A program made the translations under genes and the position numbers. This document shows positions 22,533 through 38,010 of a stretch of 64,000 nt of DNA, piece after piece. This DNA is from an uncultured Paracoccaceae bacterium (GTDB lineage Bacteria; Pseudomonadota; Alphaproteobacteria; Rhodobacterales; Rhodobacteraceae): positions 1-64,000 of the forward strand of contig CANLDA010000014.1 of the NCBI GenBank assembly GCA_947489325.1, in the 5' to 3' direction. The notes beneath the pieces were generated by a model that had not been told where the DNA came from, searched no databases, and worked only from the letters and a program-made list of their open reading frames with translations. Position 1 is the first letter of the stretch, and each line of letters starts with the position of its first letter.

Positions 22533-23288
22533 TCAATCGGTTCTGCGCAAAAGATAGATGTCCATGATCCAGCCATTTTTGGCGCGCTCTGCCGCGCGCG
22601 TCTGAATGATTTGGTCGCTGACCTCATGCAATGGCCCCTGCACCAGTACCTGCAAGGGCATGCCGACATAGCCTCCCCACCAGATGTGCAGTCCCTCTTG
22701 CGCAATATGTTGAAACGAACATTCCCCGTCCAGCATCACCGCCACCACACTTACGCCTGCAGGCCAGCCTTCTTCGCGCAAACGGCGCCCTGTGGTAATC
22801 TGTACGGCAGCGCCCAGATCGTTCAACGGGATGGCATGTGCGGCGGTCAGCATTTGCAGCGACGTGATGCCGGGCACCACATTGATGTGCAGCTCGCGTC
22901 CCTGCGCCAACAGACGATCGGCAATACGCAGCGTGGAATCATAAAGCGACGGATCCCCCCAGACCATCAAAGCAACATGCGCATCCTTGTCGGTGTGGGT
23001 ATCAATCAATCCGGCCCAGATCGTTGCCAGCGCATCATGCCATGTGTTCACCCCATCCAGATACTTGGGCGTATTGGCGTCACGTACGGGGTAATCAAAC
23101 TCCACGATCTTGGGAGGTGTTGTTAGTATATCTGCGGCAATCATGCGGCGCAGATCGGCCAACTCGGTTTTCTCATCGCCTTTGCGGGGCAACAGGATGA
23201 CATCGGCACTTTCCAGCGTGCGAATGGCCTGAAGCGTCAGGTGCTCTGGATTGCCAGATCCGATGCCAACGAGTGAAAGTGTGATCAT
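22533..23288 (-). CDS. cobF: Precorrin-6A synthase (deacetylating) CobF
   Basis: A 251-residue SAM-dependent tetrapyrrole methylase of the aerobic cobalamin route. It methylates precorrin-5 at C-1 with loss of the acetyl group, giving precorrin-6A. The N-terminal SAM motif LVGIGSGNPEHLTLQAIRTL and internal ALMVWGDPSLYDSTLRI and VVPGITSLQMLTAAHAIPL are characteristic. It is transcribed after the CbiM-like gene (72 bases between them) and therefore probably comes under the riboswitch at 24105-24212, apart from the other cob operons. Confidence 0.93.
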   Translation of the reverse strand: MITLSLVGIGSGNPEHLTLQAIRTLESADVILLPRKGDEKTELADLRRMIAADILTTPPKIVEFDYPVRDANTPKYLDGVNTWHDALATIWAGLIDTHTDKDAHVALMVWGDPSLYDSTLRIADRLLAQGRELHINVVPGITSLQMLTAAHAIPLNDLGAAVQITTGRRLREEGWPAGVSVVAVMLDGECSFQHIAQEGLHIWWGGYVGMPLQVLVQGPLHEVSDQIIQTRAAERAKNGWIMDIYLLRRTD

Positions 23289-23360: not shown

Positions 23361-24036
23361 TTAGACGCCCTTATAAACGCGTTCTGACAGCAAACCGCTG
23401 CCTTCCAGACGATACAGAGTTTTCGCACCAGCCAAAACAGCAAGATCGGCAATCGGCTCAATCAGGATCACCAGCATGTAGGCCCCACCAAAGGTCACGA
23501 TATTCGCCATGTTTTCAGCGCTAAAACCCTGACCATGAATTGCCCAAAAGGCCATCCATGCAACAGCGCCGACTTGATAAGCCGTCGAAAGGGCCAAAGC
23601 CTGAGAGTATTTCAGATCAACATAGGCCGTGTTAGGCGCAATCAGACGTGTTGCCAGTGCGGACACCACAAACAGCGGCACCAGCAAGGTGGTGGTGTTC
23701 ATGAAATATTGCGGTATGTCCGCAGGCGCAAAGAATAGCTCCTGCGCCAACAAACCGAAAGCCAGACCAATTGCGGTCGGACCTACTCCGAAAATCAAAA
23801 GGAGGGTGGAGCCGAGGATGAAATGCACCTCAGAGATACCAACCGGGAATTTTGGGGACGCTTCAAAAAAGACAAAAACTGCAAGGGTTGCCAACAGCGC
23901 GCGTGCCAAAGCTGAGCACAGTTCACAGGCTGGTGGTTTTGATGATCTCATTTACGGTATAGGTGGCTGCACCTGCAGCCGTAACATACGACAGCGTGAT
24001 TTTTGCGCCGGTGACAACACCGGGTTCGATATGCAT
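23361..24036 (-). pseudogene. CbiM-type cobalt transport membrane protein, split by a +1 frameshift
   Basis: Read from ATG 24036, which has AAGGAG eight bases upstream, the frame gives 37 residues beginning MHIEPGVVTGAKITLSYVTA, the expected CbiM-like N-terminus, then stops at TGA 23925-23923. The rest of the protein continues in the frame one base further on, to 23361: FPVGISEVHFILGS, LAQELFFAPADIPQYFMN and NTAYVDLKYSQALAL are conserved CbiM-family blocks. Skipping the T before GAA at the stop joins the halves at the expected spacing, so one extra base explains the break. The remainder is intact over about 190 codons. It could be a sequencing error, a recent mutation or a recoding site. The role would be inner-membrane cobalt uptake under B12 control. 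Confidence 0.8.
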
Positions 24037-24104
24037 TTTGAATGCTCCTTTTCAGCCGTGTAAACCCCGCACGACAAGGATGGTAAGGAATGGGCAAGCC
24101 CACG

Positions 24105-24212
24105 GCTCATACATCTGGCCGGTCTCCGGGCGTGTGAGTTGAGCCTAGGCCCTGTGGTCTCCGCCTTCCCGTTTCATTCCCTTGAATGTGGTTCTGAGGA
24201 ACACCAAAGATA
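24105..24212 (-). ncRNA. Cobalamin riboswitch upstream of the CbiM-like gene
   Basis: On the minus strand the order of conserved boxes is: GGTGTTCC...GGAACC-like arm at about 24190-24205, GGGAATGAAACGGGAA, GCGGAGACCACAGGGCC, then CCCGGAGACCGGCCAGATG at about 24112-24135. This is the core of B12-binding leaders in alphaproteobacteria. A short hairpin (GTGGGC/GCCCA) and the ribosome-binding site of the transporter gene follow within 75 bases, so control is probably at translation initiation. It should switch off cobalt uptake and cobF when adenosylcobalamin is plentiful. Confidence 0.85.
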
Positions 24213-24280
24213 GGGACTTGTAGAAAGCATCCGCATGTCGGAGCAAGGCGCAAACCGGCGTCCTGTGTGCAAATAACGCA

Positions 24281-24325
24281 ACCAACTGCCGCTCCTTAGC
24301 GGATGCAATTGGGGCAGCAGTTGGT
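24281..24325 (-). terminator. Structured terminator-like region after cobA
   Basis: ACCAACTGC (24281-24289) pairs with GCAGTTGGT (24317-24325), and an inner hairpin CCGCT/AGCGG (24289-24302) nests inside. It lies between the cobA stop and the riboswitch and probably ends the cobL-cobA transcript. No long T run is seen on the 3' side. Confidence 0.5.
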
Positions 24326-24354
24326 GTGTGGGTCTTTTTCGAACACTGAAAGGA

Positions 24355-25077
24355 TTAATCTTGCTCGGCGAGCTCGCCAAACAGGATCAAACCCGGCGCC
24401 ATGCCAACGTCTTCTTTCAGTTGTGTGGCCAAATCCTGCATGGTGGTGCGCTGTAAGGTTTGTTCCGGATGGCTGACGTTTTCGGCCAAAAGGGCGGGGC
24501 AGTCGCGGCGCAAGCCGGTGGCAAAGAGTTTTTCGGCGAGTTCCGGAAAGGTGCGCTTGGGCATGAACAAAACTGTGGTTGCACCCGGGTCAGCCAAGGC
24601 CTGCAGGTTCAGATCACCCGGCAAGGCACCCGCAACGTCATGGCCGGTTACAAATTGCACACGCCGCGCTACAAGACGACGAGTGAGGGGGATGCCAGCC
24701 GCAGCAGCCGCAGCACAGGCCGAGGTCACACCGGGAATGATTTCATAGTCGATACCATGGGCACGCAACTCGGTGATTTCTTCTTCGAGGCGGCCAAAAA
24801 TGCCGCTGTCGCCGGATTTCAGGCGTACCACGCGTGCACCAGTTTTGGCGTAATCCACCAAGAGGCGGCTGACATGATCCTGTTTTGGTGAGGGTCGACC
24901 TGCGCGTTTGCCAACGCCGACGAGATCCGCGTCAGGTCCGGCGTGTTCAAGGATTGGACCTGCTGACAGATCGTCGAACAGGATCGCCTCGGCGTTTTTG
25001 AGACGATTTACGGCCTTGACGGTCAACAACTCGGGATCACCCGGGCCGGAGGAAACGAAACTGACAAATCCGCTCAT
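24355..25077 (-). CDS. cobA: Uroporphyrinogen-III C-methyltransferase CobA (SUMT)
   Basis: 240 residues. This enzyme adds two SAM-derived methyls to uroporphyrinogen III to make precorrin-2, the entry to the corrin branch. SSGPGDPELLTVKAVNRL near the N-terminus, VVRLKSGDSGIFGRLEEE and PGVTSACAAAAAAGIPLTRR are standard SUMT blocks. It has no CysG-like dehydrogenase/chelatase fusion, so it is a dedicated CobA. The ATG overlaps the cobB stop by four bases, and cobA is the last gene of the cobL-cobE-cobM-cobB-cobA operon. Confidence 0.93.
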   Translation of the reverse strand: MSGFVSFVSSGPGDPELLTVKAVNRLKNAEAILFDDLSAGPILEHAGPDADLVGVGKRAGRPSPKQDHVSRLLVDYAKTGARVVRLKSGDSGIFGRLEEEITELRAHGIDYEIIPGVTSACAAAAAAGIPLTRRLVARRVQFVTGHDVAGALPGDLNLQALADPGATTVLFMPKRTFPELAEKLFATGLRRDCPALLAENVSHPEQTLQRTTMQDLATQLKEDVGMAPGLILFGELAEQD

Positions 25078-37667: not shown

Positions 37668-37767
37668 TTTGTCTCTCCCAACTATGGGGGACAAGGGTTA
37701 TGGCGGGGGTGCGCTGCACCTTTTCCCGACACCGAAAACACCCCGTCCGGTTACATGTCTGTTCCTG

Positions 37768-37957
37768 TTGGCAGGTCTCCCGGCTTGCGGATGTCAGGGC
37801 ACGCTTGGGGCGTTTTCCTGTCGGCCCTCCTGCCTTCCCGGATTTTTCCAGTGGCATCAGGGGACCTCTCCGGTCACGGTCGCGGGGGCGGCTGCGTTTA
37901 GGATTATGTCGTAACCCGTATCGCATTCCCTTTTCACCTGCACTAAGTACAGGAACC
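37768..37957 (-). ncRNA. Cobalamin riboswitch upstream of the DUF1636-cobW-cobN operon
   Basis: On the minus strand: GGTTCCTGTACTTAGTGCAG (P1/P2 arm), GGTGAAAAGGGAATGCGAT, ACGCAGCCGCCCCCGCGACC, GAGAGGTCCCCTGATGCCAC, and the closing box AGCCGGGAGACCTGCC (about 37770-37785). This is the full set of conserved B12 leader boxes, longer than the copy at 24105. The DUF1636 start lies about 100 bases downstream. It should repress seven cob genes when adenosylcobalamin is abundant. Confidence 0.92.
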
Positions 37958-38010
37958 AACCCGGTCGAAATGCGCAAGTCGCGCATCAATGTCAAGCATG
38001 GAGACGCCAC

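Follow-up and report, generated by a model that had tools for sequence, protein, structure and literature searches.

The locus considered here raises the question of whether a cbiM-type cobalt transporter gene that reads in two frames, below a cobalamin riboswitch, is recoded, wrongly sequenced or no longer functional. In the window, which represents the whole stretch of 64,000 nucleotides analysed and comes from a marine-type bacterium, the gene is flanked by cobA and cobF, and the cob cluster also contains cobB, cobM, cobN and cobW. The gene order cobM-cobB-cobA-cbiM-cobF is common to the window and Shimia thalassica (L031), in which the copy at the same cob-cluster position is intact, with 226 residues. 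With a probability of about 0.93, we consider the gene to be a recent multi-lesion pseudogene that descends from a CbiM-type cobalt importer under the control of a riboswitch, which has also decayed. The features concerned are as follows.

22533-23288, minus strand: cobF-type methylase, intact downstream neighbour (TP_methylase, 110 bits; syntenic in S. thalassica)
23361-24036, minus strand: probable cbiM-type cobalt transporter pseudogene (Pfam CbiM, 44.4 bits for the +1-frame part; synteny with S. thalassica)
23361-23951, minus strand: open +1 frame encoding the remainder of CbiM (196 codons, counted from an ATG that is out of phase)
23898-23904, minus strand: site of a 2-nt loss within the run ACGCGCG/CTG, giving a net +1 frame (collinearity of the 0-frame extends to codon 46; EVH 2 nt early)
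23923-23925, minus strand: in-frame TGA, codon 38 (the collinear codon of Shimia encodes Arg)
24100-24223, minus strand: cobalamin riboswitch remnant (26.1 bits versus the gathering score of 31.5; core deleted, junction at about 24170-24165)
24355-25077, minus strand: cobA (uroporphyrinogen-III methyltransferase type), intact neighbour (TP_methylase, 151 bits)

Reading frames and coding lesions

The gene starts with the ATG at 24036, just 5' of which is AAGGAG, and its N-terminal part reads MHIEPGVVTGAKITLSY..., with MHIEPG as the opening. From this ATG, the peptide MHIEPGVVTGAKITLSYVTAAGAATYTVNEIIKTTSL is encoded until the TGA at 23925-23923 is reached, and the +1 frame is open as far as 23361, its residues 18-174 matching the Pfam CbiM family (PF01891) with 44.4 bits, compared with a cut-off of 23.1. 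The coordinates of the ATG, the TGA and the +1 frame in the first-pass annotation were hence correct, and its claims of a CbiM gene family and a CbiM N-terminus were supported by the MHIEPG opening and the Pfam match. The single open frame that would lead from MHIxxG into the membrane core of a CbiM protein was, however, interrupted by the TGA at codon 38 and by a 2-nt loss.

Alignment with relatives placed the frame junction away from the TGA. The start frame was collinear with more than 100 relatives through codon 46, that is, past the TGA, and the 0-frame residues beyond the TGA in the window (TVLSFGTR) aligned with DVAAFAVR of Shimia, both ending at Arg-46, after which the cbiM continuation (LLATLAVFVFF) was found in the +1 frame. 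Furthermore, in 98 of the 107 relatives SEVH starts at residue index 68, resulting in an EVH motif at nt 207, compared with nt 205 in the window; therefore, the gene in the window is 2 nt short. The collinearity beyond the TGA up to codon 46 shows that codon 38 was changed by a separate nonsense substitution, and the 2-nt loss is a distinct event about 20 nt downstream, in the CG run near codon 46/47. As to the break at the TGA that had been annotated, the early stop and the open +1 remainder were borne out, whereas the true junction lies about 20 nt past the TGA. The single-base +1 event proposed at CTG-TGA-A did not hold, as no base has been inserted and the gene, far from carrying 1 nt too many, lacks 2 nt.

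Remnant of the cobalamin riboswitch

At the Rfam gathering score, no cobalamin riboswitch was detected above the cbiM-type gene, and relaxed thresholds yielded only the remnant at 24223-24100, which scored below the cut-off for RF00174 and had no GCCACTG, so that the B12 box was not intact. The riboswitch annotated directly above the gene was, thus, correctly positioned, but what is present is a remnant with its core deleted. In all 14 relatives tested, which were loci with an intact gene, a cobalamin riboswitch of 93-130 bits was located directly upstream of the gene. In the alignment with Shimia, GAAACGGGAAG directly abuts GCGGAGAC in the window, the two GGGAAG copies of Shimia lie at a distance of 97 nt, and the CTGCCCCCGCAA and GCCACTG motifs, which lie in the lost aptamer stretch, are both gone from the window. 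This is explained by a deletion between the short direct GGGAAG repeats, which took away about 97 bp and, with it, the core of the aptamer and its B12 box. It could be supposed that, with this deletion, B12 no longer represses the downstream cobF and the leader transcript, in which case regulation would have been changed and the lesion would not be merely neutral decay, but we regard this as improbable.

Two other riboswitches were seen in the genome, with 96.9 and 107.7 bits. The former, at 37753-37975 on the minus strand, is intact and lies above a 137-aa ORF (37694-37281), cobW and cobN. Between cobA and the riboswitch remnant, an imperfect inverted repeat, ACCAACTGC...GCAGTTGGT, was observed at 24278-24330, in a stretch that is about 50 nt longer than its Shimia counterpart and occurs as a single copy in the genome. 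A mobile element between cobA and the leader was considered and rejected, as 24215-24356 was found to be single copy when queried against the genome itself, and a HEARO match at 24325-24134 was set aside (20.6 bits versus a cut-off of 83). Promoter and terminator scans gave scores no better than those of shuffles.

Relatives, selection and alternative explanations

GTDB contigs and 394 genomes of the family served as the source of the relatives. Nearly all of those fetched carry cbiM in a single open frame, so that the disabling lesions of the window are missing from its orthologues; only L058, in which the copy is cut by a contig end, and L062, in which it is independently broken, depart from this, and the frame break of the window was shared by no relative fetched. 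In the copy at L062:3870-4537 (AH-224-B08, a single-cell genome of Paracoccaceae), the frame breaks around codon 26 and a stop lies within the gene, below a riboswitch that still scores 80 bits; CbtA was not found in this partial genome. The breakage could be an independent loss, or an amplification or sequence error. Another family genome, G341, has a second CbiM copy broken into two pieces (C15:231731-232232) with TGA and TAG inside, and also an intact copy elsewhere.

To assess selection on the remainder of the gene, changes were assigned to the window or the Shimia lineage using the sites with agreement between the outgroups Cognatishimia (L032) and L002; for cobB, L032 was the sole outgroup. 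Of the amino-acid changes in the second half of cbiM, 17 fell on the window lineage and 5 on that of Shimia (binomial p 0.017), and the nucleotide changes on the window lineage were distributed 10/12/9 over codon positions 1/2/3, which indicates relaxed selection, although the numbers are small. The neighbours were balanced, with 4 versus 5 amino-acid changes in cobA, 13 versus 15 in cobB, 1 versus 2 in cobM and 9 versus 8 in cobF. The codon-position shift was significant when tested against the four neighbouring genes of the window lineage (Fisher p 3e-5), but not against the Shimia cbiM branch alone (p 0.35). Statistically, amino-acid changes have accumulated in the second half, since its divergence from Shimia, at a higher rate than in the neighbouring genes. 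In addition, of the 49 columns with at least 99% conservation among the relatives, the window deviates at 2, a count equal to the highest among 102 relatives, for which the mean is 0.08. As a counterpoint, the changes in cobF on the window lineage were distributed 10/8/8 over codon positions 1/2/3, also with a raised share at the first two positions, although its amino-acid counts were balanced. The second half, which had been described as intact, is thus open and intact-looking, but not undamaged in view of the excess of amino-acid changes.

These results bear on the explanations that would keep the gene functional. That the gene is intact and was sequenced or assembled wrongly, one option of the first-pass annotation, is conceivable in that the pseudogene analysis rests on one strain's draft assembly of 109 contigs and the 2-nt loss sits in a short CG run. 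However, three separate errors within 350 bp would be needed, for the nonsense substitution, the 2-nt loss and the riboswitch deletion, and the excess of amino-acid changes would be left unexplained. Because three independent lesions, two of them coding, and the substitution excess agree, a read error is very unlikely. Even less probable is that translation from the ATG at 23951 turns the second frame into a truncated protein that still functions. The 196 codons of this frame are open, but the product would have neither the conserved MHIEPG opening nor the first transmembrane segment, a Shine-Dalgarno-driven start was not seen at 23951, and the changes in the frame are nearly even over codon positions. 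Finally, a programmed +1 frameshift yielding full CbiM at CTG-TGA-A, the suggested functional recoding site, can practically be dismissed. Both frames could be connected by one +1 step made at the TGA or earlier, but the real junction lies beyond it, and slippage at the TGA would produce a protein that is missing one residue and differs from all relatives at about nine others. Neither a prfB-like CTT-TGA-C nor a Shine-Dalgarno sequence upstream can be recognized at the TGA, the leader is damaged too, and the relatives need no frameshift, all but one of the others being in one frame apart from the contig-cut copy, with neither a slippery site nor the break conserved.

Cobalt uptake elsewhere and comparison with known systems

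A pseudogene would fit the "recent mutation" option of the first-pass annotation. A point against it is that the second half is still mostly conserved, from which the loss is considered recent on the scale of genera. The 37-residue peptide would not transport metal, and neither would a product of a restart at the out-of-phase ATG, which would be without the N-terminal Met-His metal site that has a role in CbiM/NikM. No second CbiM copy was found when sought in the same genome, so that the broken gene is its only CbiM homologue. Another contig (C16) carries an intact CbtA (151.5 bits), a CbtB-like ORF and the 107.7-bit cobalamin riboswitch. CbtAB is a predicted cobalt transporter (PMC2667541). 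Shimia holds both the CbiM and CbtA systems, and Cognatishimia (L032) holds CbiM only. In the family, CbiM and CbtA are each present in about 28% of the 394 genomes, and they occur together in 16, compared with about 32 expected (Fisher p 6.5e-5, with kinship ignored). On the loss of riboswitch-linked cobalt transporters, the literature yielded general background on CbiM/CbtAB distribution only.

The intact riboswitch-cbtB-cbtA operon would have made the loss of cbiM tolerable: cbiM would have become dispensable because CbtAB can supply, and may now be supplying, cobalt to the still intact cob pathway. In cbiM itself, codon 38 has turned nonsense, 2 nt have been lost separately in the CG run at codons 46/47, and the sequence between the short direct repeats above it has been deleted together with the cobalamin aptamer core. 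The locus represents a small, clear case of redundancy followed by gene loss, in which a cobalt importer and its B12 switch decay together and another candidate importer remains intact; it is otherwise ordinary.

It also calls for caution, in that a stop beside a frame change is not necessarily a site of recoding, and aligning relatives moved the junction elsewhere. The programmed +1 frameshift of prfB resembles this locus in having a stop codon near a +1 frame change, but the window has neither the slippery CTT-TGA-C nor a conserved site, and its lesion is downstream of the stop. Compared with the cobalamin riboswitch RF00174, the remnant keeps the outer helices and the GGAGACC 3' strand, but not the core between the GGGAAG copies. 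A further close comparison is the CbiM permease (PF01891) of Rhodobacterales, exemplified by that of Shimia thalassica, which shares the position between cobA and cobF, the riboswitch above, the MHIEPG opening and 76% identity; the gene and riboswitch are intact there, whereas both are broken in the window.
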